Position numbers and translations under genes: made by a program | Origin: Chrysophaeum taylorii | Taxonomy: Eukaryota > Sar > Pelagophyceae > Pelagomonadales > Pelagomonadaceae | Direction: 5' to 3' | Assembly: GCA_029834535.1 (NCBI GenBank) | Contig: JAQMWT010000154.1 | Coordinates: 34,262-98,261, forward strand | Length of the DNA: 64,000 nt | Shown: one piece after another, positions 1,998-31,354 of the stretch | How the letters are laid out: the number at the start of each line of letters is the position of its first letter | Numbering within the stretch: position 1 is the first letter of the stretch | Notes under the pieces: model-generated | Seen by the model: the letters and a program-made list of their open reading frames with translations, nothing else | Told to the model about the DNA's origin: nothing | Databases searched by the model: none

Positions 1998-2003
1998 TTT
2001 ATT
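1998..2003 (-). terminator. AATAAA-like hexamer overlapping the receptor stop
   Basis: On the minus strand the last codons read CAA TAA AAA, so AATAAA overlaps the TAA stop (1999-2001). This is the same arrangement as in PRIMPOL, to which the gene is convergent. Confidence 0.35.
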
Positions 2004-5000
2004 GCGGACTCGGGAGAGATTGCGTCGAGGCGGGTGGGAAGTGATGACGTCGGATGCGCATCGGAAGTTCCACGGAGGATTGCCCCGCGCCACCCTCTTC
2101 GACGGGGTCGTTGATCGTGTGGCGCCGTACGCGATTCCCCTCGAGAAGAAAGTCCGCCTGGAGCTGGCGGATGGCGTGCTCGCGGACGCTAAAGATGGCC
2201 GGAACGCTCCGAGAAGAGGCCGGAGAGCCCGAACCGTCGTTCAAACCGTCGTACGACGACTCGGCGGTCGAGTCCAACGAATCCGAAATCTTTGCGGTCT
2301 CGAACGGGTAGTTTTTGCGGTCGGAAGCGTCGGTGGTGGGCGAGGCGTCGTTGGTTGCTTGGGGGCTCGCGGGCTGCTCGCCAAGCTCGGGCGGCGGCGA
2401 CACCGCCAGCATGTCGTAGACGTGGTCGATTTGCGTAGACGCGGCCATCGTCTTCTCGATGTAGGCGGCCACGAGCGCGCTGTCGAAATCGCCGTACCTC
2501 CGCACGACGCGAATCTTGGGCGCGAAGACGACGAAAAGCGTAGAGAGCTCGGTAGCGGCGACGACGAGCGACTTGATGATAAGAAACGGCGTCGGATTGT
2601 TTCGCAGCACGTACAGGACGGGCGCGACGATAATGAACGACTGGAGTTGCGCGAAGAGCGCCGTGAAGACCCAGCGGCCGTCGCAGACGACCGACGGTAC
2701 GTTTCGGACGTGATAGCACATGTGGAACGCAGCGCCGTAGCAAAAGAGGTGCCAACACGAGAGAAGAATTAAAAAGAGATACGAGGCGCACTCGCAGCGG
2801 CGGACCGAGCTGTCGCACTCCTGGGAACCGGTAAGGTGAGAGGACTCGTAGTTGAGGCAGTCGCGTTCGGAGACGAGGGGGTCCTCGATCATCCATGCCG
2901 TGATGACGGCGATCTCGCCCACGACCATGATGGTCGCGACCGGCACGAAATCCGGGCACGATTGCGCTCGCCCAAAGGTGATAGCAGCTTCGATGACGTG
3001 CTCGATGTTGGCAAGCTTGCTGTAGAGCGTCGACGCGGTCAGAACGAAGCCCGCGCCGAAGAGCGCGAGGTTCGCGCGACAACCAAAGTCGGTGATGCCC
3101 GTAATATCCGGCACTATCGAGGCCGTCGAGATGACGGCACCCGCGCAGATCGCGTGCATGTACAGCGGCTGGGCAACTTTGACAATCATACGGTCGCGAA
3201 ATTTCCACGTCCAAGTCGAGCAAAACGCCGCAGAGACTGCGACCGCGATCACGCAACACCAGAGGAGCCCGATAGCGAAGCGAGAAAGGAAGTGCTTATC
3301 TTCCTTTCTGTCTTTTATCGCCACGACGCTCGCGCGGAGCTTTGGCGTGGCGACCGTCAAATCAGAATCGATGTGCACCGTCAATTCGATCGTCACGTTT
3401 TCCACGTCCTCGCTCGCGAAGAGAGTCAAGCTGTCAAACGTGCAGACGCCTGCCTCGCAAAAAGCCGTATCTTCCTGTGACAAAAGGCCAGGGGCCGTCG
3501 TCGTCGTGACGCGCGCGTCGTATTCGGTGACGACGAGCGCGTTTCTCGCGTCCAATAAGCGACACTCTAATTTTGGAAGCGCCTCGCCGCTCCTCAAGTG
3601 GAAGTTGAGCAAACTGCCGCAGTCGAGGCTAGCGGCTGGCGTCGCAATCGCGTCGCCATACCCGGCAAAATTGGAGCTTAGGATTTCGAGACCTGCCAGT
3701 TGATCGGACTCCTCCTCCTCCTCCTCCTCATCTGAATAGAAAACGAATCCCACGCCGCCGCCGCCGTTTGGGGCGCTGTTCTCGACGGCGATCGAAACCG
3801 CGTCGAGCAGCGCGGGCAATCGGAACTCGATTGGCGACGTCTCGGTCCCCGACGGAAGCCAGTGAAATTCGTCAGTGGACGCCAACACGGCACGCGACTC
3901 CGTATCAATGACCTCGAGCGTCCCACCCCACCAGGTCGTCGCGAGGCTGCTGTACGCCGTGATTTGGTGCGTGCTATTGGGTTCGAGGCAGTGCGTGTCG
4001 ACCCACGCGCCATTGGCCGACGGCGCCCCGATGATGCCGGTTGGGGATTCCTGGTAGTAATTCTCCAAGTTCGACGAGCACGAACAGCCATCGCAGATGT
4101 CTTCAGTGCTGGTGGCGCGACTCGAGAAGCCGCACGCGTTCGTGTTATAGTCGCACGTGGCGATAGGTTGCAGCGAGATGTTGTAAGGCGAGCAACGGCT
4201 CGTCGTGTACCTCCAATCCATCACGACGGAGACGTCACGACACGAAATTGACGACGTGGTGGCGAAGTAAACGCCAACGTTTGACGCCACTTCGCCTGGC
4301 GGCGCCGACACCGCGAACAAACCGCCGTTGCCGTTCCACGCGACGTTCCTGAAGAACTGCGACCGAAGAACGCGAATCGTCGAGAGCTCGACGAACATAG
4401 CGCCCCCATCTTGGCCGCATTCGTTGGCGACGAACGTTGACTGGTCGACGACGACAGATGCCTCGGAAGCGCTCGACGGGCCGTCGCCCACGTCGAAAAG
4501 AGCCAGGGCACCCCCGTTCCCCGAGGCGATGTTTTCTTCGACCCACGATGATACGAGGTAAAATCGCGAGACACCGGACAAATGAGCAAACCCAGCATTT
4601 AACGCCGAGTTCCCAGTGCCGTTGATGTCGCGGAGGACCACAGATGCGGTCTGCCACGCCGACACAAAGCCACCGGAGCCACTGTCGGCGCGATTCGAGC
4701 TTACGTTACCGCGCGTCACGTTGAACGTCGAGAGCACGTCCACCCAGGCGGCGCCGCCAAAGCCCGAAATTGCAACGTTCGCGACGAAATCGACGTCAAC
4801 TAAAACAGCTGTTGGACCTAAGCTGAGCGGAGTGTCGGCGCTCCGCATGAGCGCAATTGCTCCACCGCTATCGGAGGCAACGTTGGCTTCGAACATTGGT
4901 CCGATATTGGCGACGGGTTGCACGTCGATCTCGATGTCGGCCACGCGCGCACCGTGTTCCAGGAAGTCGAGCGTGTATGACGTCTGCGAACGATTCCCAG

Positions 5001-6963
5001 CGGAGACGGACAGCACGGTGTCCTGCCAGCCCGCCCCCGTGCGGTCCGACAACCACAGCTCGTACGTCGCAGGCGAAAGGCAGAAATGCCCCAGAACGTT
5101 GCTCGCGGTTTCGTCGAAGAAATCGATCGTAGGGTCTCCTTTGGCGTCGACGGCGCTCGATGCGGAGTGGCCCTTGCGCACCAGCGCAAATCCTAGATCG
5201 TTGGCACTGACATCGGTGACCTCGACGGTGACAAAGCTACAATTTTCGCTCGCGAGGAGGCGCGTATCTTCGGAACCTTCGAGGGCGACGGCACCCCCGG
5301 CGGCTGCTGTGTTACGAATGAACCTCGACGCGAGCGAATGGACGACACTCGACGCGCTCGCATAAACCGCGCCCCCCGTAACCGACGCGTTGTTCGCCGT
5401 CAGCTTGGAGGAGACGAGACGAAGCGTGCTCGAGAAGAGCGCGATACCGCCGCCAAAGCTAGCCGCGCATCGCGTGATGCTCGTGGCATCGAGGATCACG
5501 GGGTTATCGATGTCTTCGAAGTCAAATCCACCGCCTTTTCCTTCGGCGAAGGAGTTGCGCACGACGGACCGCGTAACCTGAACCGTCGTAGCACGGTCAA
5601 ACCTGGCCGCGCCTCCGTCGAGCATGGCAGAGCAATTCTCCAAGTGCATCGTATCGAACACCCCTGAAAAACCGAGGTTACGTTTGGTCGTCGCCAAGCA
5701 GCCACCGAAGGTGGACGACCACGTGTTGACGATACGCAAGCGCCTTATGAGACTGAACTCCAGCACGAGAAGTAGCAGACCTCCACCGCCCAGCGAATTC
5801 CGCGCGTCGGTTTCTGTCTCCGGCTCGTCGACCGTCGCGCATTGCTCGAAGGAAACGTTGTCCATTGATATGGTCCCCTCACTCGCGAGTATGGCACCGC
5901 CGGCGTTCACCCCTGCCGAACAACGCTTGACATCCACATCGATCAAGTGGAGTGTGTTTACGACCAATCTGGCGGTAAACGCGCCGGAAAAACTTTCGGC
6001 CGTGCAATCTTCGAAAGTTGTTCGCTCGAACCACGCAAAACTTCCAGTGATTACATAGAGGCCGCCGCAGCCGGCCGAAGGCGACCCGGCCGCGTTGCAT
6101 CCAGAGAATATGGTATCTTCGATGCCGACGAGGCCGAACTCTTCGAACATCGCCCCCCCGGCGTAAAGCGTCGACGAACACTTCTCAAAGCGCACCGAAA
6201 CAATCGAGTTGGACACAGTCCCGATGCTATAGACACCACCACCTCGGCCCTGGAAGGGGGTCCACACAAAGCAGCCGACGACCGTCGACGCGACGAGCGA
6301 CACCGAAGCTGCTCCGTACGCGTACAAGCCACCGCCGTAGAACTCGGCGCTGCTGTTGACGATCGTTGTTCTCGACAAATCGACGACGGCATCGGTCCAG
6401 ACAGCAATAGCTCCCCCAAAGCTCGCGTGGCAGTTTCGGAACGTGACGTTTGTGATCGAAAGGTTCGTGCCCGCTCCTGCCAACAAGCAGCCACCAAACG
6501 AAGCGCTCGTGCCGTTTTCAAAATTTAAACCGTCGATAGACACCGACATTCCCGGCAGAACACTCAACAAGCGGTGCCCTCCGGTACCGTGAAACAACGC
6601 GTTTCCAGCGACGTGCGTTGACACGGCGATCACCATCTCTCGTGTCGTCTGAATCGCCGCATCGGCGATCCAGACAGATGATGCGCAGTCGACTTCTAGC
6701 GCCGTCGAGAGTTCCGACTCCCCCGAGACGACGGCCACCGAGGGCTCCTCGGCGCAAGAGATGGCCTCGGCAAGCTCTAGGCACTGACAGGCGCTGCAGT
6801 CGCAGCCAAGCTCGGCAGTCAACGACGCGACAACCCCTGAACCGGCCTCGAGGTCCGTGCAAAGAATTCCCCAGAGCGTGAAATTGTCGCAGGACGAATC
6901 AAAACAATTTCGTGGGCACGCGCTGACGGCGGCGAGGATGATACCAATCGTTGTCGTTCTCAT
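1999..6963 (-). CDS. Giant secreted-type beta-helix ectodomain fused to GABA-B-like (class C) 7TM receptor
   Basis: A 1654-residue protein without introns. The ATG at 6963 is chosen because it starts a good signal peptide (MRTTTIGIILAAVSAC); the longer frame upstream has only a TTG start. Residues of about 30-1150 contain many Pmp-like parallel beta-helix repeats of the GGA-I/L type (GGCLLAG, GGAIAV, GGGLYAYG, GGAVYAS and others), with many N-glycosylation sequons, expected to form an extracellular solenoid. The segment encoded by about 3300-2470 has seven hydrophobic helices with class C GPCR hallmarks: VKVAQPLYM after helix 1, FGAGFVL with a K two helices on, AWMIEDPL in helix 4, HVRNVPSV in loop 3, and FAPKI closing helix 7, closest to GABA-B receptors. 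The roughly 155-residue cytoplasmic tail is Ser/Pro-rich. It probably couples an adhesive or sensing surface domain to G proteins. The ligand is unknown. Confidence 0.85.
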   Translation of the reverse strand: MRTTTIGIILAAVSACPRNCFDSSCDNFTLWGILCTDLEAGSGVVASLTAELGCDCSACQCLELAEAISCAEEPSVAVVSGESELSTALEVDCASSVWIADAAIQTTREMVIAVSTHVAGNALFHGTGGHRLLSVLPGMSVSIDGLNFENGTSASFGGCLLAGAGTNLSITNVTFRNCHASFGGAIAVWTDAVVDLSRTTIVNSSAEFYGGGLYAYGAASVSLVASTVVGCFVWTPFQGRGGGVYSIGTVSNSIVSVRFEKCSSTLYAGGAMFEEFGLVGIEDTIFSGCNAAGSPSAGCGGLYVITGSFAWFERTTFEDCTAESFSGAFTARLVVNTLHLIDVDVKRCSAGVNAGGAILASEGTISMDNVSFEQCATVDEPETETDARNSLGGGGLLLLVLEFSLIRRLRIVNTWSSTFGGCLATTKRNLGFSGVFDTMHLENCSAMLDGGAARFDRATTVQVTRSVVRNSFAEGKGGGFDFEDIDNPVILDATSITRCAASFGGGIALFSSTLRLVSSKLTANNASVTGGAVYASASSVVHSLASRFIRNTAAAGGAVALEGSEDTRLLASENCSFVTVEVTDVSANDLGFALVRKGHSASSAVDAKGDPTIDFFDETASNVLGHFCLSPATYELWLSDRTGAGWQDTVLSVSAGNRSQTSYTLDFLEHGARVADIEIDVQPVANIGPMFEANVASDSGGAIALMRSADTPLSLGPTAVLVDVDFVANVAISGFGGAAWVDVLSTFNVTRGNVSSNRADSGSGGFVSAWQTASVVLRDINGTGNSALNAGFAHLSGVSRFYLVSSWVEENIASGNGGALALFDVGDGPSSASEASVVVDQSTFVANECGQDGGAMFVELSTIRVLRSQFFRNVAWNGNGGLFAVSAPPGEVASNVGVYFATTSSISCRDVSVVMDWRYTTSRCSPYNISLQPIATCDYNTNACGFSSRATSTEDICDGCSCSSNLENYYQESPTGIIGAPSANGAWVDTHCLEPNSTHQITAYSSLATTWWGGTLEVIDTESRAVLASTDEFHWLPSGTETSPIEFRLPALLDAVSIAVENSAPNGGGGVGFVFYSDEEEEEEESDQLAGLEILSSNFAGYGDAIATPAASLDCGSLLNFHLRSGEALPKLECRLLDARNALVVTEYDARVTTTTAPGLLSQEDTAFCEAGVCTFDSLTLFASEDVENVTIELTVHIDSDLTVATPKLRASVVAIKDRKEDKHFLSRFAIGLLWCCVIAVAVSAAFCSTWTWKFRDRMIVKVAQPLYMHAICAGAVISTASIVPDITGITDFGCRANLALFGAGFVLTASTLYSKLANIEHVIEAAITFGRAQSCPDFVPVATIMVVGEIAVITAWMIEDPLVSERDCLNYESSHLTGSQECDSSVRRCECASYLFLILLSCWHLFCYGAAFHMCYHVRNVPSVVCDGRWVFTALFAQLQSFIIVAPVLYVLRNNPTPFLIIKSLVVAATELSTLFVVFAPKIRVVRRYGDFDSALVAAYIEKTMAASTQIDHVYDMLAVSPPPELGEQPASPQATNDASPTTDASDRKNYPFETAKISDSLDSTAESSYDGLNDGSGSPASSRSVPAIFSVREHAIRQLQADFLLEGNRVRRHTINDPVEEGGAGQSSVELPMRIRRHHFPPASTQSLPSPQ

Positions 6964-7684
6964 TCTTATAAAACCGCGCCGGACGCCGACGACTTCAAAC
7001 AAAATGTCGACCGCCCGCAGACACCACCACCACCACCGTCACCACCAGCGAAAGATTAAGTGTTCTTCTACTTCTTGTCACGTAATTCCGGCACCTTCGG
7101 CACCAAAAGAAAACTACATACAGTTTTGTCGAATACACGTGTAGGGAAAAAATAAGATATTGCTTTCTCGAGTTCTTTTTTTCTTCTTCCTTTTCAAGAC
7201 AGGCGGCTTCACCGGCCGGGCTGGCAACCGTGCGGAGATTGCCAATAATTACTGATTTGCCCCTATGCCCAGGCTCCTCCTGCCACATAGATGAGAGCCG
7301 TGGTGCTTAGTTGCTGCTGCAAGCAATAGTCGCGCGCGCAAGCTGCATTTAATTACAGTAAGATAATGTTCAGACCAGGGCGCTATATAGATGATCAGCA
7401 TAATAGGCACTTCGATATAGCGCAGGAGTAAGCAGGGTGCCCGTCGCTATTGTGGGTAGGAATAACGATGCTGCGCGTACCCAAGACGACGACAACGACC
7501 GACCCTGATGGAAGAAACGAAGGACAAGCAAGGAGCGCCAGCAACAAAGCGGTAGACAGACAGATAGATATATAGATAGCGGAGGGAAGCGCGCACCTCG
7601 GGGAAAAAAAAGAAGGACAAGTGCGAGGGGGCTATTGATTCCGGAATAAAAGGCGGCGGCACCGGCGCGCGGTCAGCGAGTTGT
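6964..7684. other. Intergenic region, no gene recognised
   Basis: It lies upstream of the receptor gene and downstream of the light-harvesting gene (both minus strand). A TTTTATAA stretch sits immediately 5' of the receptor ATG. A (CAC)n run lies at about 7022-7050 and short GATA-type repeats at about 7559-7580. Short open frames here look non-coding. Confidence 0.5.
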
Positions 7685-8443
7685 TCAATGGAAATAGGAA
7701 GCGAGGGTGTCCGCGATAGTCTGGTGTGTGACTTGCTCCTGGGCGCACATCCCGGCGACCGCAATCATAGCTAGGCGTCCGTTGTTGAGCTCCTTGGTTA
7801 CGAGCGTCTTGAATTCTTCAGGGTCCGTTGGCTTGAGTCCAAGGGGGTCAAAGCCGAGGTCACCTGGATAATAGGTAAGGCGCAGGCTGAAAAGCTCGTC
7901 GGGCGAGGGCTCGACCCAGCCGCGGCGAGCTCGATAGGTCTCGCAAATGCCAATGGCGATAGAGAGCGCGGCAAAGAGGGGGGCGGGAATTTGCTGAAGC
8001 TGGTCATTGGCGGGGCCAGAAACCTTGCCCGCCCAGACGATGGGGCTCCAGGCCTCGCCGGCGATGTAGCCGACGCTCGCCATCATCGCGACCCGCCCGT
8101 GCATGATCTCGGCCTCGCGGTAGCGTCTTACGTCCTCGAGCGGCACACCAGTCCCGCAGAGGCCGATGGGATCCCAGTTGCCGAGAGGAGGGCACGCGCC
8201 CGGAAGGCCATAGCAGAACTCGCCGTAGGTCGGGACCCACCCGTTGAGGACAGGTGGCTTGCGCTTGCCGGCGCGTCGGCTGCGAGATGGCAGCGTGGTT
8301 AAAGGAGGGTCATCGCTGACGAGCGTATTTTCTGGAGGCGGCGGCGACGACGAATAGAGGCGCGTCAATGATGGCCGCGCGCCATACGCCGCCGAGGGGG
8401 CGACCAAGATGGCCACGAGCGACAGGTAGCTGCTGGTGGCCAT
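7685..8443 (-). CDS. Chlorophyll a/c light-harvesting antenna protein (FCP/Lhc family)
   Basis: A 252-residue thylakoid antenna protein that binds chlorophyll and carotenoid and funnels energy to the photosystems. The ATG at 8443 is chosen because the preceding in-frame sequence overlaps the divergent gene and is compositionally unlike an LHC. Residues 1-30 form a signal/transit-like leader (MATSSYLSLVAILVAPSAAY) suited to a secondary plastid. Helix 1 carries the chlorophyll-binding motif REAEIMHGRVAMMA (about residues 109-122) and helix 3 the matching KELNNGRLAMIAVAGM (about 217-232), with FDPLG before it. The N-terminal loop WDPIGLCG also fits the family. Assignment to Lhcf, Lhcr or another subclade needs a tree. 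Its 5' end faces the coiled-coil gene across 91 bp. Confidence 0.95.
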   Translation of the reverse strand: MATSSYLSLVAILVAPSAAYGARPSLTRLYSSSPPPPENTLVSDDPPLTTLPSRSRRAGKRKPPVLNGWVPTYGEFCYGLPGACPPLGNWDPIGLCGTGVPLEDVRRYREAEIMHGRVAMMASVGYIAGEAWSPIVWAGKVSGPANDQLQQIPAPLFAALSIAIGICETYRARRGWVEPSPDELFSLRLTYYPGDLGFDPLGLKPTDPEEFKTLVTKELNNGRLAMIAVAGMCAQEQVTHQTIADTLASYFH

Positions 8444-24557: not shown

Positions 24558-26810
24558 CTACTCTAAGGGGAGGCACTCGCGCGTCGCCCTCGGGCGAATG
24601 ATATTTCCATTGGAGTATCTTTGAACAAGGCGGCGTGGGTCGGATGTGGTAGCAGCAGAAGGCGGCGCGAGCGGAGTCCAGTTCAAATTCGCGGCGGCCC
24701 AAGCACCGAAGCATATGGCGTCGGCCGCGTCCGTCGTGAGCTTAGCGTCCAAAGACGGCACTCTGAATGCTTGACGGGAGCGGAATATAAACTGTTCGGC
24801 GATGTGATGCGCAGCCTCCTTTGAGCTTGGTGCGTTGCGACACTCTTTTCGGGTGAGGAGGTCGGCGCGCCATCTCCCGGCGTCGACGACCTCGGCAGTT
24901 TTGGCGGCGACGAGGCCAGCTGCCGCGAGGTCGTTCATCGCCCGTTCGCACAAAGCACGGGAACCCTCGGCTGCGACGAGGGCAGGCCGAGAGTCAAGCT
25001 TCATCGAAGCAACAGCAGCCGCGGGGTCGGCCGCAGACGCGTACGCGACGAGAGCGCCCGAATGATCGTACGCGGCGACGCCTACGCGCGTCGCGCCTAG
25101 GTCTACGGCCAAGAGCACACGATCCTCGGGGCTTTTTTCGAGACTGATCTGTGTGATCTTCTCCGTCGGTGCCATCTGGTCGACGTTTTTTGTTTTGGGA
25201 TTATTTTTGTGATCAACAAATTTGAGGTCGAGTCGCGCGGGAGGCCGGACGAGCTCGACGGCGCGACCCGGGTTGGCCGCGGCAGCGTTGAGCACGAGGA
25301 CGCCATCTCGGACGCGCAAGCCGGCCGACTCGTGGATGTGGCCGCATATCCAGAGCGCAGGCAACGAGCGGTTGGCGAAGGCCTGCTCGAGACCACGTCG
25401 TAAGGTCTTGCTGCCGGCCGAGTAGCCCGAGTAGGTCGCGTCGAGGACTCCCGCGGGCGGCGCGTGCGAAACGACGAGGTCGACGTGGCCGACGGTCGCG
25501 ACGAGGGCAGCGGCATGGCGATACGAGCCGTGCGGGGCTGCGAGCACGCGCATCGACGATTTTGCGAAGACAAAATCGTAGAGCGTTGGCTCGGTCGCGT
25601 ACGGCGCGGCGAGCTTCGCGCGGACGGGGTCGTGGTTCCCGCGGACGACCAAGCCAGCGGGGAACTTTTCGAGCCAGCCGTTGAAGGCCTCGAGAGCGGC
25701 CGCGTTGGCTATTTTGTTGCGCGAGTCGAGCGCAAAGTCACCCGCGTGGATCACCAGGTCTCCTTTCGCCTCTGGAATCTCCAAGCCGTGCGTGTCGGAG
25801 GTAACGACGACTCTGATAACGTCGTTCTTAACTTCCGGGCAGTTCACGCGGACGATATGCGGCAAATAATTGGGCTCGTGTTGAGCTAAGTTCAAGGTGA
25901 GGGACCCCGGTTCGTTCGTGGTCCAGCCGCCGGGCCATTGCTCTCCCGGCGAGATTCGATACCGCGCCCAATGCCACCTCGGTACGAAATCGCGCTCTCG
26001 CTTGCGTCTCCACCGTTCTTCTTCCTTGCGCACGTGCCTTCGAAAGTCCTCGTCGGGGCACTCGTTCGACAAGAGGTCCGAGAACAGTTTGCCCGCGTGG
26101 AGCACGCGTTCCCAGGTCTCCTCCTTGCCCTTCGCGCCGCCGCCGTTCGCGAAAATCGCCTTCGCGAGTTCGGACGCCTCGCACTCCAGCACCAATTCCT
26201 CCGGACTAAGAGGTTCCGCGAAGAGATTTGTGTCCTTGGCCCGTTGTGCCAACGCGTGCAACCACTCGAGGTCGTCGCCCCGTGTCGAAGGCTCGACGGT
26301 TTGAAGAAGAAGCTCGACGTCGAGATCGAGCGCCTTCGCGAGAGCGGTCGCTTTGATGAAGTCGACGCGACCGAGACCCCTCGCCGCGCGTTTGCAGCGC
26401 GTCACCAGGTTTGTGTCGGACGTCACGACAGCGATCCGCTTGAGGGTCGAGCGTTCCAACACGTAGCGGACGTCCCTCGCGATCGCGTCGTCGGCCGACA
26501 GGCGCGGACCGCTGAAGACGACGCGGACGTCGTTGCGCTCGAAGGCGTCGGCGCGCGGCCCGTGGTCGTAGTAGACCGTCGCCGGACTCTCGAGTCCCGC
26601 GGAAGCCCATTGCGACACGGCACCGAGAAGCGAATCTTTGGTCGCCCGGAATCCGCTTTTCCCGCGGACGTTATCTCCGTCGATCAGAATTCTCGAGTAG
26701 TGCTCCTTGAGTTCGAGTCTACTCCTCGCCGGCGCCGCCGAGAGACCGTTGGCAACAACAGCCCACACCAAAACCAACACGGAAAACGACGACGACGACG
26801 ACGACGACAT
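24558..26810 (-). CDS. Three-domain fusion: NYN/PIN-like nuclease, calcineurin-like phosphoesterase, RuvC-like RNase H fold
   Basis: A 750-residue continuous frame from the ATG at 26810. Residues 1-30 form a signal/transit-like leader. Residues 39-165 match the YacP/NYN branch of PIN-fold RNases: ILIDGDN (D44, D46), SADDAI (D107, D108) and VVTSDTN (D132). After a basic helical linker, residues 331-515 form a metallophosphoesterase with a full metal set: SDTHG (D339, H341), HAGD (D358), RGNHD (N392, H393), VVSHAPP (H449) and CGHIHE (H491, H493). Residues 564-705 resemble a RuvC/YqgF resolvase fold: LLAVDLG (D570), VAAEGS (E615) and TTDAADA (D694, D697). All acidic residues expected for catalysis are present. 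The linker 531-545 coincides with a 42-nt in-frame stretch starting GTTGAT and ending CAG that could be a tiny intron; removing it keeps frame. Likely a plastid nucleic-acid enzyme. Confidence 0.8.
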   Translation of the reverse strand: MSSSSSSSFSVLVLVWAVVANGLSAAPARSRLELKEHYSRILIDGDNVRGKSGFRATKDSLLGAVSQWASAGLESPATVYYDHGPRADAFERNDVRVVFSGPRLSADDAIARDVRYVLERSTLKRIAVVTSDTNLVTRCKRAARGLGRVDFIKATALAKALDLDVELLLQTVEPSTRGDDLEWLHALAQRAKDTNLFAEPLSPEELVLECEASELAKAIFANGGGAKGKEETWERVLHAGKLFSDLLSNECPDEDFRRHVRKEEERWRRKRERDFVPRWHWARYRISPGEQWPGGWTTNEPGSLTLNLAQHEPNYLPHIVRVNCPEVKNDVIRVVVTSDTHGLEIPEAKGDLVIHAGDFALDSRNKIANAAALEAFNGWLEKFPAGLVVRGNHDPVRAKLAAPYATEPTLYDFVFAKSSMRVLAAPHGSYRHAAALVATVGHVDLVVSHAPPAGVLDATYSGYSAGSKTLRRGLEQAFANRSLPALWICGHIHESAGLRVRDGVLVLNAAAANPGRAVELVRPPARLDLKFVDHKNNPKTKNVDQMAPTEKITQISLEKSPEDRVLLAVDLGATRVGVAAYDHSGALVAYASAADPAAAVASMKLDSRPALVAAEGSRALCERAMNDLAAAGLVAAKTAEVVDAGRWRADLLTRKECRNAPSSKEAAHHIAEQFIFRSRQAFRVPSLDAKLTTDAADAICFGAWAAANLNWTPLAPPSAATTSDPRRLVQRYSNGNIIRPRATRECLPLE

Positions 26811-26932: not shown

Positions 26933-28273
26933 ATGCTGTCGCTGTTCTTCGTGCTGTCGCCGCGGGGGGACACGATAATCTCCAAGGACTATCGCGGGGA
27001 CTCGCCGCAGGGCGCGGCCGAGTCGTTCTTTCGCAAGGTGAAGTTTTGGTCGAGCGAGGGCGCTGGAAAGAGCTCGGGGGCCAAAGGGGCCCCGCCCGTT
27101 CTGGTGATCGACAAGGTGACGTACATGTGGGTGAAGAAGAACGGTCTGATATTCGCGTGCAACACGAGGTTCAACGCGTCGCCGTCGCTGTGCATCGAGC
27201 TTCTGAACCGCGTGATCAAGGTGTTCAAGGACTACTGCGGGGTGCTGTCGGAGGAGGCGATCAGAAAGAACTTTATTTTGATCTACGAACTCCTCGACGA
27301 GATGATCGACTTTGGATATCCGCAGGGGACATCGACCGAGAACCTCAAGGCGTTCGTCTACAACGAACCCGTGTTGGTGGAGAAGCTGCGCGTCAACCTC
27401 TCGTCCAAGACGACGCCGTCGAGCGCCGTCCATAAGCCCGTCGTCGCGGCGCAGTCGTCGCTCGCGAGTGCCGTCACGCCGGGGAGCAAGGAACGCAACG
27501 AGATATTCGTCGACATTCTCGAGCGGCTGACGATGCTCTTTTCGTCGAGTGGCGCCGTCGTGAACTCGACGATCGACGGTTCTATACAAATGAAGTCGTA
27601 CCTGAGCGGGAACCCCGAGCTGCGGCTCGCGCTCAACGAGGACCTGGTGGTCGGAAAAGGCGGGGCCTACGGCTCGGTCGTCCTCGACGACTGCAACTTC
27701 CACGAGTGCGTTCGGCTCGACGACTTCGAGACGCAACGCTGTCTCTCGTTTTTTCCGCCCGACGGCGAATTCGTCGTCTTGAACTATCGTTGTACGGGCG
27801 ACTTCCGCGCCCCCTTTCGCGTCTTGCCGTCGGTCGAAGAAATATCGCCCTTCCAGCTAGAGATCGTCGTTGTCGTCCGCGCCGACGTCCCCGAGACAAA
27901 CTACGGCGCGAACGTCTCCATCACCGTCCCGGCACCCCGCAACTGCGCCGGCGCGACCGTCGCCCCCGTCGCCACCGCGGCCGGTCATACGGGCGACTAC
28001 GACTCCCTCGAGAAGAAAATCGCCTGGCACGTCAAAAAGTTCCAGGGCGGCTCCGAGCACGCCTTCCGCGCCAAAATCGCCCTCTCCTCCATGTGCACCG
28101 CCCAGACGAAAAAGGAAATTGGTCCCGTCTCCCTGACCTTCGAGATCCCGATGTACAACGTATCCAACCTCCAAGTCAAATACCTCCGCATCGCCGAACA
28201 AAGCAAGGGGAGCCCTCATTACCGCTGGGTCAGATACGTCACCCGCTCCTCCTCCTACGTCGTACGCTGCTGA
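26933..28273 (+). CDS. AP4M1: AP-4 complex mu subunit
   Basis: A 446-residue medium adaptin. The N-terminal longin-like domain starts MLSLFFVLSPRGD and has KDYRGD and RKVKFW, the signature that separates AP-4 mu from AP-1/2/3 mu. YELLDEMIDFGYPQ (about 122-135) and TSTENLK follow. The mu homology domain, which binds tyrosine-type sorting signals, spans about 180-446 and includes RNEIFVDILERL, a substrate-groove region, and ends YRWVRYVTRSSSYVVRC, the family's terminal motif. AP-4 forms a clathrin-independent coat at the trans-Golgi. The gene has a single exon with the ATG at the conserved N-terminus and diverges from the nuclease/phosphoesterase fusion. Confidence 0.93.
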   Translation: MLSLFFVLSPRGDTIISKDYRGDSPQGAAESFFRKVKFWSSEGAGKSSGAKGAPPVLVIDKVTYMWVKKNGLIFACNTRFNASPSLCIELLNRVIKVFKDYCGVLSEEAIRKNFILIYELLDEMIDFGYPQGTSTENLKAFVYNEPVLVEKLRVNLSSKTTPSSAVHKPVVAAQSSLASAVTPGSKERNEIFVDILERLTMLFSSSGAVVNSTIDGSIQMKSYLSGNPELRLALNEDLVVGKGGAYGSVVLDDCNFHECVRLDDFETQRCLSFFPPDGEFVVLNYRCTGDFRAPFRVLPSVEEISPFQLEIVVVVRADVPETNYGANVSITVPAPRNCAGATVAPVATAAGHTGDYDSLEKKIAWHVKKFQGGSEHAFRAKIALSSMCTAQTKKEIGPVSLTFEIPMYNVSNLQVKYLRIAEQSKGSPHYRWVRYVTRSSSYVVRC

Positions 28274-28398: not shown

Positions 28399-29108
28399 AT
28401 GTTATGGTCACGGCGGTCGGCGATCGCGTTGGCGATGTGCGTTGTCGGCGCTATCGCGGCGAAGAAAAAGAGCAGCAAGGCGAGCGACCTCGAGAAGGTG
28501 ACGACGCAGGTGTACTTCGACATGTCGATCGGAGGTGAACCCGCGGGAAGGATCGTGATGGGCCTCTTCGGAAACACCGTTCCGAAAACCGCCGAGAATT
28601 TCCGGGCCCTCGCGACGTGCGAGAAGGGCACGGGAAAGAGCGGGAAACCGCTCTGCTACAAGGGCTCCAAGTTCCACCGAATCATTCCCGACTTCATGCT
28701 TCAAGGCGGCGACTTTACCCACGGTACCGGCACGGGCGGCGAATCCATTTACGGGACGAAGTTTCAAGATGAAAACTTCAAGATCAAGCACACCAAGCCG
28801 GGGTACCTCTCGATGGCCAACGCGGGCAAGGACACCAACGGATCCCAGTTCTTCATCACGACCGTCAAGACCTCGTGGCTCGACGGCAAACACGTCGTCT
28901 TTGGCAAGGTCCTCGAGGGCATGGTGAGTTTTTTTGCGACACTTGCTGAATCGCGCCGCAGGACGTCGTCAAGGCCATCGAGAGGATCGGCTCGCAATCC
29001 GGCAAGCCGAAGAAACCCGTCGTCGTCGAAGACTCCGGCGAGCTCCCAATTCCTACTCCCGACGAGGTACCCTCCGAGGTACTCTCCGCGCCGGCCGCCG
29101 AAGCCTAA
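28399..29108 (+). CDS. Secretory-pathway cyclophilin (peptidyl-prolyl isomerase B type)
   Basis: Two exons, 28399-28923 and 28962-29108, encode 223 residues. The 38 bp intron (GTGAGT donor, CGCCGCAG acceptor) is needed: without it the frame runs into non-cyclophilin sequence, and with it the domain ends properly with [16 protein letters not shown]. The signal peptide is about residues 1-21. The cyclophilin domain (about 35-190) has the full catalytic set: R94, F99, M100, Q102, W160 and H165, in [15 protein letters not shown] and [10 protein letters not shown]. It catalyses proline isomerisation during folding in the ER. A 30-residue acidic/proline tail follows; no KDEL-type retention signal is present, so it may be secreted. 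Confidence 0.95.
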
Positions 29109-29215
29109 ACCTTCTGCTGCCGGGTGTCGACTATTCCTATTCTTCTTCTATTTCAAGAGAGAGAGAGAGAGAAAGAAAGGATCTCCTTGGAGACGGATGA
29201 TATACTCGCAATTTG

Positions 29216-31354
29216 CTAGCGAGGGATGAGCAGGTAGGTGGTCGCGTCGGCGGCAACCCGAGACCCCCGCCTCGCCGAACCGAGGGGAAAAAGCCAGTCG
29301 CGCGTCGCGTTCCCGCACTCGAGCGGTTTGGCGTGGGTCGTATCGAGGCCGTCCTTGGTGTCGTGGAAGCGGTGGGCCACGACGTAGGTGGACGTGGAAA
29401 CGGCGCTCTTGAGGGCGTCGAGGTCTCGGACGTAGACGAGGTCCCCGAGCGGAGCGAAAAAAAGGAACAACGCGTGCCAGTGTCGCGCCTTGAGGCTCTC
29501 CCAGGCGTATCTCGCGAGAGGGAGTGCGGCCGTCGTGTCGTGGGTACCGACGCCGCGCGGCACGTTGCAATCCAGGGTGGTGAAGTTGACCCGTCCCGAG
29601 AGCTTGTAGTCGAGGCGGGACGCGAGCGCGCGGTGGCCGAGATCGTTCTCGCACACGCCGACGACCACGGCGTCGAAGGTGTGGAGCGCCGAACACAGCG
29701 AGGCGAACGCCGCCTGGTCGGGCACGCGCGCGACGAGCGGCACGAGAGCTACGGCCTCGGCTCTGCTCGCGGGCGGTCGGTCGAAGGTAACCGCCGCCGC
29801 CGCCGCCGCGTAATCGACGCAGGGGTCCGTCGCGTTATGATGATGGTCATCGAGCCGGCGGCGGCGCTCGGTCGGGTAGTGGCGTCGCCGGCGATGCGGC
29901 GCGTCGGCGGCGTGGCGGTGATGGTGGTGGTGGTGCCACCCCGCGCGATGATGCTGATGCTGCTGTCCCGAGGCGTCGTAGGGCGGCCACCGGCCGCGAC
30001 AGAGCCTGCACGTGGCGAAATCGGTGGGTCTCGTCGTGGAGAGCGTCCAGGTGTGCCAGGATCTCGAGAGCTTGAGCTCGTCGAGGGCCGCCGTCAGCGC
30101 GGACAAGCTCTTGAGCGGTGCCTTGAGCCTCTGGACGTCGGCGGCGAGGAAGAGCTTGGCGTGCGCGAACCAAGCCCCGACCTGCTTCTCGGCCTGGTTC
30201 CAGCACCGGGCGAACCCTACTACCGTGTGGTTCTTCGAGGAAAGCGGCTGGTAGCCCGGACTCAACGCGCTCGCGTACGTGTGCCTCGCGTTCTGGCGCG
30301 ACGTCGCGTCGTCTTTGAAGTAGCGGTTTCTCGCGCGTACGCTCGCGAGCGCCGCGTTGATTTCCCGGTCGACGACGACAGCGCGCGGCGTGTCGAGGGC
30401 CGGCCAACTCACGCGGGTGCCGCGCTCGGGAAACGTCCTCGCGGGAAGCGTCCCCGGCGGCCTCGCGAGAGTCGCCACGAGCTCGCCGTTGCAAATGTTC
30501 TGAGAGAACTCGTGCGGGACGTCGTCGAGCCGAACGAGACCGTTTCCGCGCCTCGGGAACGGCTCGCGCAGGCGATTCGGCGCGACGTAGACGTGCTGCC
30601 CGACGGCGCCCATCAACTGCCTCGCGCTGAGCTCGCTATACAAAATCTGATCGGCTTCGGTGAAATAGACGAAATCGCAAGCGAGAGCCTCCGTCTCGAC
30701 TCGACGCTGGAGCTCCCGGAGCACGGCGAACGCCAAGTGCGCGCCGTGCTTGACCCGGACCTGCCATACTTCCTCCCTGATCGCCTCCACGGACGCCTGG
30801 TCTGCGTCGTTCGCCACTCCCACCACGACGCGCGCGCCCAACGCCGCGCGAATAGAGCACGCGACGGCCCTCAGCTGACGCGTCTTCAGCGATCGCTCCA
30901 GTCTCGAATGCGAATTCCCGACGACCTTCCCGGCGCTGTCCGTCTCCGGCGCGCCTCCCCAAAACGGCACCACCGCCACCACCGCGGCCTCCGTGACAGC
31001 CGGTCTCTCGACGCACCTCCGCTCGGCTCTCTCCGTTTGCGCGACCAACAGCGCCTTCGCGTCCGCCACCTTCGCCCGCTCGATCGTGTGCTCGTACTCG
31101 GATAGATGGTTCACCCAAAACGCTCCCGCGTCGGCAGACTTGAGGGGCACCCGAGGCCGCCCGTTCCCCCCTTGATGGAACATGAAATAGTCGTGGAACT
31201 CCATCCCCAGCTTGTCCCCGAACTCCGTCTCCAGTACCGTGTCGCGTCGGGCGAACCAAGCCGCGGCGTACGCCCCCGCTGGACCGTGGCACGTGCGCCA
31301 CAAAGCGACCTCCTCACCAACCGCGGTCCCTCCCAACAACAACAACAACAACAT
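29216..31354 (-). CDS. Secreted/Golgi protein with two tandem glycosyltransferase-like halves
   Basis: A 712-residue protein; the ATG at 31354 starts a signal peptide ([18 protein letters not shown]), while the longer frame has no better start. The first half contains an alpha/beta region with [12 protein letters not shown] followed by [15 protein letters not shown], where EAD in a beta-strand/turn context is a plausible DxD-like metal site. A linker with about twenty His residues (about 500-540) separates it from a second half with the same order: [14 protein letters not shown], then [16 protein letters not shown], where the acidic triad is altered (PLGD). This suggests duplication with a degenerate second site. 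CRLCRGRW lies before the linker. Short halves and many sequons fit a Golgi lumenal enzyme, but no CAZy family was assigned. It converges with cyclophilin across 107 bp. Confidence 0.65.

Follow-up and report, generated by a model that had tools for sequence, protein, structure and literature searches.

Three described groups of enzymes stand closest to the protein considered here. Rae1/YacP acts as an endoribonuclease in ribosome-dependent mRNA decay, as stated in the available part of PMC11780869. Among class III metallophosphodiesterases such as MPPED1/MPPED2 and Rv0805, the available part of PMC10547211 reports that MPPED1/2 and dMpped hydrolyse cyclic AMP (cAMP) and dMpped also cyclic GMP, with 2',3'-cAMP preferred and 3',5'-cAMP also cleaved. 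RuvC, Ydc2 and MOC1 share a loop consensus after the catalytic glutamate, E(X)2-4Y/F(X)1-2D/K/R/N/Q/S, given in the available part of PMC7078210. Domains related to these three groups are joined in one protein encoded on the 64,000-nucleotide stretch of Chrysophaeum taylorii contig JAQMWT010000154.1 analysed here (the window). The frame, on the minus strand, has 750 codons and a stop with no internal stops, giving one protein, and in the whole-genome view the open frame that includes it measures 767 codons on the contig (C154). Its chain of leader, NYN domain, helical linker, MPPED-type phosphoesterase and RuvC-like domain is a conserved three-domain protein of a photosynthetic alga, the source organism being recognised as such because its 70.8 Mb assembly, searched throughout, contains 84 light-harvesting-domain matches. 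The sequence-only reading had proposed three folds in this order in one 750-residue gene, and both the domain matches and the recurrence of the arrangement in relatives bear this out.

To describe the family, 152 proteins were collected in three protein searches (120 of 122 matches listed for the third), and domain models were made from nine close relatives, with the RuvC-like model drawn from seven pieces. The NYN, metallophosphoesterase and RuvC-like domains follow one another in the same order in 97 of the 152 proteins, nine of these being the rows of the model itself. Other layouts were phosphoesterase-RuvC (14), NYN-phosphoesterase without RuvC (37), RuvC alone (3) and phosphoesterase alone (1). 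Several of the 37 (P0011, P0025, P0026, P0027 and P0029) have no GHIHE motif and look truncated, as by eye does P0150. Named three-domain members (Seminavis robusta, Nitzschia inconspicua, Cylindrotheca fusiformis, Fistulifera solaris, Fragilariopsis cylindrus and Dactyliosolen fragilissimus) are all diatoms; the rest include environmental sequences and are presumably algal. Among the proteins that carry no RuvC-like domain are P0150, from Pseudo-nitzschia multistriata, and P0152, whose tag CCRYP we take to denote Cyclotella cryptica. Two transcript-derived open reading frames (ORFs) from MMETSP, P0037 and P0080, hold all three domains, which supports the proposed single mRNA in those organisms, the transcript evidence coming from relatives only. 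As the three-domain order recurs in so many proteins, diatoms and transcript-derived ORFs included, the frame is not a chance run-on.

A whole-genome search found no second three-domain copy in the own genome. Partial matches there comprised two NYN-only frames (L002 and L004, on contigs C21 and C524) and one phosphoesterase (L003, on C176), and the RuvC-like domain was found at no other place in that genome. The informative source names across the family mention a phosphoesterase alone. Diatom records entitled "Calcineurin-like phosphoesterase" or "Metallophosphoesterase domain-containing protein 1" (Seminavis P0061, Nitzschia P0067) are, by the domain models, the same three-domain protein, and their names cover only its middle domain. 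In the open-licence PMC literature searched, we found neither an NYN domain together with RuvC and a metallophosphoesterase, nor a RuvC-like fusion in diatoms, nor an orphan RuvC family; the available part of PMC2848206, retrieved for NYN domain and diatom, contains neither RuvC nor metallophosphoesterase. The parts are thus known folds, their combination was not found in the literature searched, and neither the Pfam nor the NCBIfam scan supplied a curated name for the RuvC-like family.

The catalytic centres are intact in all three domains, as the sequence-only reading had held, with residues that are near-invariant wherever they are aligned in relatives (counts are from 97 full-length rows unless stated). 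In the phosphoesterase, the eight ligands D/H/D/N/H/H/H/H are kept wherever aligned, six in 97/97 rows and two in 92 with 5 gaps, so the metal-ligand motifs DxH, GD, GNH, H and GHxH are complete in 97/97 or 92/92 aligned rows. For the RuvC-like acids, D570 is present in 97 rows, E615 in 96 with one gap, and D694 in 94 with one proline and two gaps; the fourth acid is glutamate in 92 rows, aspartate in one and a gap in four. In the NYN domain, D107 and D108 are each found in 94 rows, D82 in 90 with one asparagine, D132 in 86 and D44 in 83, the remainder being gaps, and position 46 is glutamate in 74 rows, aspartate in 9, asparagine in 1 and a gap in 13. One of the 37 other NYN-bearing rows has glycine at position 107. 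As all three centres are kept, a dead scaffold is argued against.

Domain by domain, the protein both resembles and departs from its nearest described counterparts. It shares with Rae1/YacP (PF05991) the NYN fold and its conserved acids; D44, D82, D107, D108 and D132, which we take to be the acids that define the PIN-like fold, occur in nearly all aligned rows. In contrast to Rae1/YacP, it has a DGDNVRGK signature, a helical linker motif and a fusion to two more enzymes. A T[GWYF][ED]R-type motif lies between the NYN and phosphoesterase domains in 116/134 relatives, compared to 4/134 after shuffling. The stand-alone paralogue L002 shares the signature and carries a EQTWMRVVLAERLR segment resembling the linker motif, so the NYN domain and linker may form one module. 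The phosphoesterase is assigned to the MPPED type (class III) by both a curated profile match and the MPPED fold. It differs from MPPED1/MPPED2 and Rv0805 in belonging to a larger nuclease fusion, and it keeps a histidine that is glycine in wild-type rat MPPED2. At the C-terminus, the tail motif is present in 70/97 full-length relatives. Coordinates are collected in Table 1.

Table 1. Features of the three-domain gene (window coordinates) and related NYN frames elsewhere in the genome (locus coordinates)
Feature	Residues	Position	Strand	Details	Basis
Whole gene, uninterrupted frame	750 aa + stop	24558..26810	-		ORF reading
Signal-like leader	1-38	26697..26810	-	Hydrophobic helix 8-23, then NGL-SAAPARS	Helix, hydrophobicity and family comparison; same-genome comparators by eye
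NYN (YacP/Rae1-like, PIN-fold) domain	38-165	26316..26699	-	D44, D46, D82, D107, D108, D132	
Helical linker	179-274	25989..26276	-		
Conserved linker motif	230-246	26073..26123	-	E-x-T-W-E-R-V-L	
MPPED-type (class III) metallophosphoesterase	325-534	25209..25838	-	D339, H341, D358, N392, H393, H449, H491, H493	
RuvC-like (RNase-H fold) domain	564-710	24681..25121	-	D570, E615, D694, D697	
C-terminal tail	711-750	24561..24680	-	R[YFH][STL]N motif	
Canonical YacP-like NYN protein	346 aa	L085:1228-2268		Plastid-type leader	Leader by eye
Stand-alone NYN paralogue	362 codons	L002:1420-2505		DGDNVRGK signature as in window protein	
Second stand-alone NYN frame	252 codons	L004:1384-2139		N-terminal hydrophobic segment	

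The RuvC assignment made from the letters alone stands in the superfamily sense of an RNase-H/RuvC-like fold; by profile, the domain is neither PF02075 RuvC nor RuvX. It shares with RuvC, RuvX and MOC1 the order of RNase-H-like elements and the acidic tetrad D-E-D-D/E, the latter as in RuvC proper and MOC1. Neither the window protein nor a 25-row RuvC-like alignment (24 stand-alone rows, described below, plus the window domain) matched PF02075 at E <= 1, and no Pfam/NCBIfam family matched more than two of those rows at that threshold. The RuvX family PF03652 scores the window domain at 15 bits, below its cut-off of 29.2; its best E-value is 6.2e-5 in other fusion-domain pieces (three of seven match at E <= 10) and 8.4e-4 in full-length relatives. 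With a set of six true RuvC, profile alignment by hhalign was weak, with E-values of 0.027 (over 27 columns) and 0.1; with two RuvX it gave E 4.4e-4 over 19 columns. Fold comparison matched the RuvX structure 7ess weakly (E 0.02), and single-sequence structure prediction of the domain gave no usable model (pLDDT 42). A PDB profile search with the fusion pieces returned only ribosomal protein S3 (E 0.4), and none was returned with the bacterial alignment. At E <= 1, PHROG 1770 matches 18/25 rows (best 3.7e-6) and PHROG 159 matches five (best 8.1e-5), both being annotated as Holliday junction resolvase. Measured against the loop consensus as it appears in the available part of its source, the aromatic residue of E(X)2-4[Y/F] is found in 6/96 fusion rows, 1/53 bacterial members and 6/6 true RuvC, and the full consensus in 6/96, 0/53 and 4/6, respectively. 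The window loop, EGSRALCER, has no aromatic residue and lies outside those six fusion rows. As the aromatic residue is mostly absent despite the acidic tetrad, a classical Holliday-junction resolvase is unlikely: by sequence the fold appears RuvC-like at its catalytic centre, and Holliday-junction specificity is doubtful.

Relatives of this domain occur as stand-alone bacterial proteins. Short proteins of this kind first came up in the protein search with the seven fusion pieces. A genome scan yielded 216 relatives, of which 80 loci were kept (L005-L084), and the ORF filter retained the gene in 53/80. The proteins are about 155 aa long; P0034 is also a member, as are P0032 and P0033, whose origin is unstated. 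By title or taxonomy, the loci come from Thermodesulfobacteriota, Rhodothermota, Bacteroidota, Planctomycetota, Gemmatimonadota, Nitrospirota, Chloroflexota, Myxococcota and others. The motifs LLAVDLGLRTGLA, EGGG, WR and SLRHDAAEAI are strongly conserved (for example, L011:5028-5498). When seven fusion pieces were aligned by hhalign to 24 stand-alone rows (21 from titled bacterial loci and three from the protein collection) with no row in common, the match covered the whole domain with probability 99.9 and E 2.6e-32. The two groups share the WR, K and D-A-A-E/D-A motifs, and the fusion domain differs in adding a C-terminal motif. In a tree of 20 fusion domains, hand-chosen from 111, and 28 stand-alone proteins, one branch (95/92), present in 96% of 200 bootstrap trees, separates the two, which is compatible with a single transfer. 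All six genomes checked from the 80 loci also hold a true RuvC, and two of the six hold RuvX. One bacterial RuvC-like protein had no match in plasmid and phage records at E 1e-5. A viral origin was considered and rejected, since the viral-contig scan found no relatives of the RuvC-like domain and the similarity of six viral loci is confined to the phosphoesterase part.

The RuvC-like domain is not constant within the algal family. In a tree of the NYN and phosphoesterase domains from 124 proteins (91 with the RuvC-like domain and 33 without; root unknown), its presence needs five changes, at least four of them forced by starred branches. A clade of 16 short proteins (among P0129-P0149) that end after the phosphoesterase is nested in a large clade with named diatoms and likely lost the domain; a second clade without it comprises 12 proteins, P0012-P0023. 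As whole subclades without the RuvC-like domain keep the other two, it is accessory, and NYN plus phosphoesterase is the constant core.

Targeting was examined in those full-length relatives whose NYN signature is preceded by 28 or more residues. A hydrophobic stretch of 13 residues (mean Kyte-Doolittle of at least 1.6) is found in 62/78 of them, compared to 0/78 linker controls and 3/78 anywhere behind residue 70. The window leader, VVANGL-SAAPARS, was compared by eye with leaders from the same genome (AAAF-V and SAAY-G of light-harvesting proteins, WSF-S of the canonical YacP, EGL-Q of one RuvX) and may be a plastid bipartite presequence with leucine. Of the plastid or secretory leader suggested by the sequence-only reading, the hydrophobic segment stands, with its likeness by eye to plastid-type leaders; the organelle location is only plausible.

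We tentatively read the protein as a plastid-targeted enzyme of RNA processing or decay with an accessory domain for structured nucleic acids, a reading to which we give somewhat less than an even chance. The protein would be imported into the plastid or a surrounding compartment and act in RNA processing or turnover. There, the NYN domain would be an RNA endonuclease like Rae1/YacP; the MPPED-type domain would hydrolyse phosphodiester bonds, be it at the ends of RNA or in small products (2',3'-cyclic phosphates, cyclic nucleotides); and the RuvC-like domain may bind or nick structured RNA, DNA or RNA:DNA. We infer these activities from the family of each domain; the anatomy and conservation are observed. 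Several points weigh against this reading. The NYN assignment is supported by profile, yet weakly for the window protein, which scores 21.5 bits with PF05991 (NYN_YacP), below the cut-off of 24.6; among relatives, 20/29 match at E <= 0.01 (best 1.3e-6). In the own genome, the PF05991 search returns only the canonical YacP L085, another gene, with which the window NYN has marginal similarity (E 0.064), and with a separate YacP and two RuvX matches present, the plastid YacP and RuvX roles are seemingly already filled. The leader has leucine where the classical ASAF motif has an aromatic phenylalanine. Gene-neighbour clustering in the 80 bacterial loci revealed no link to RNA. The family itself accounts for 53 loci, and the cluster next in size (17 loci) consists of minus-strand frames that overlap the family gene and took its place in the ORF filter, which favoured the longest frames. 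An M24-type peptidase (by eye; 12/80) follows, then others in at most 11, and we read these as clade synteny. The clade P0012-P0023 may never have had the RuvC-like domain, and the count of losses is unsafe given long branches, the unknown root and truncated models.

Other explanations were weighed against the same evidence. Two or three genes merged by the open frame or by an assembly error would be in keeping with the single three-domain copy in the genome and the separate NYN (L002, L004) and phosphoesterase (L003) frames; the linker motif between the domains is conserved, however, and as the order recurs in 97/152 proteins, which stem from many contigs, and in ORFs derived from transcripts of relatives, we rejected this artefact, whose probability we regard as negligible. 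A plastid DNA recombination or repair protein, in which the RuvC-like domain would resolve branched DNA and the other two would trim the products, is unlikely, although it can draw on the retained acidic tetrad, the PHROG resolvase matches, the possible plastid leader and the lack of a PF02075 RuvC match in the own genome, where MOC1 was not searched for. It is opposed by the rarity of the aromatic loop residue in fusion and bacterial rows (as judged by the partly available source), by the coexistence of the bacterial relatives with true RuvC in all six genomes checked and by the lack of the domain in whole subclades.

More ambitious than the RNA-processing reading, and quite unlikely, is a single-chain plastid hub in which the NYN domain would cut RNA, the MPPED domain would remove cyclic or diester ends and the RuvC-like domain would handle RNA:DNA hybrids or branched intermediates. 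The protein may instead be a secretory, periplastid or vacuolar phosphodiesterase/nuclease that salvages phosphate from nucleic acids, for which speak the hydrophobic leader in 62/78 relatives, which by eye is often followed by no aromatic residue, and the union of three phosphodiester-cleaving folds in one chain. We hold this to be rather improbable, as the leader looks by eye like the leaders of plastid-type proteins encoded in this genome and the RuvC-like and NYN families are, to our knowledge, intracellular elsewhere. A second-messenger enzyme, its MPPED domain hydrolysing cyclic nucleotides and the other domains serving in regulation or nucleic-acid sensing, would agree with the cAMP hydrolysis and 2',3'-cAMP preference of MPPED1/2 and dMpped reported in the available part of PMC10547211, and with a complete histidine set that includes the one replaced in rat MPPED2. 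The NYN and RuvC-like catalytic residues are nevertheless conserved about as well as those of the phosphoesterase, which would be superfluous for sensing alone, and we consider this explanation very doubtful.

Several features of the surroundings were also recorded. A divergent neighbour (window 26933-28273, plus strand), 122 bases from the start codon of the three-domain gene, is adaptor-complex mu subunit-like by eye, and a frame resembling, by eye, a secretory cyclophilin (28399-29229, plus strand) continues into sequence that is not homologous and may be an intron. On the minus strand, a light-harvesting (PF00504) domain at 7733-8209 lies within a long open frame, the true start being probably the internal methionine of MATSSYLSLV, and inspection by eye of a 1667-aa open frame at 1999-7002 showed repeats of a beta-helix-like kind and, towards the C-terminus, membrane segments. 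Contigs C88 and C539 of the same genome carry arrays of light-harvesting genes at about 1.2 kb spacing with equal or near-equal scores.

If the hub explanation were true, one enzyme would clear R-loops or stalled products of transcription and translation, and the bacterial stand-alone relatives would also be an undescribed nuclease class. More generally, the finding would bring to light an enzyme that combines three cleavage centres, is conserved in diatoms and goes in sequence records by the name of a phosphoesterase alone. It offers a candidate for RNA or DNA processing in plastids that can be tested directly in model diatoms. Attention is also drawn to a RuvC-like family that is widespread in bacteria, was not recognised by the Pfam/NCBIfam scans and accompanies true RuvC in the six genomes checked.
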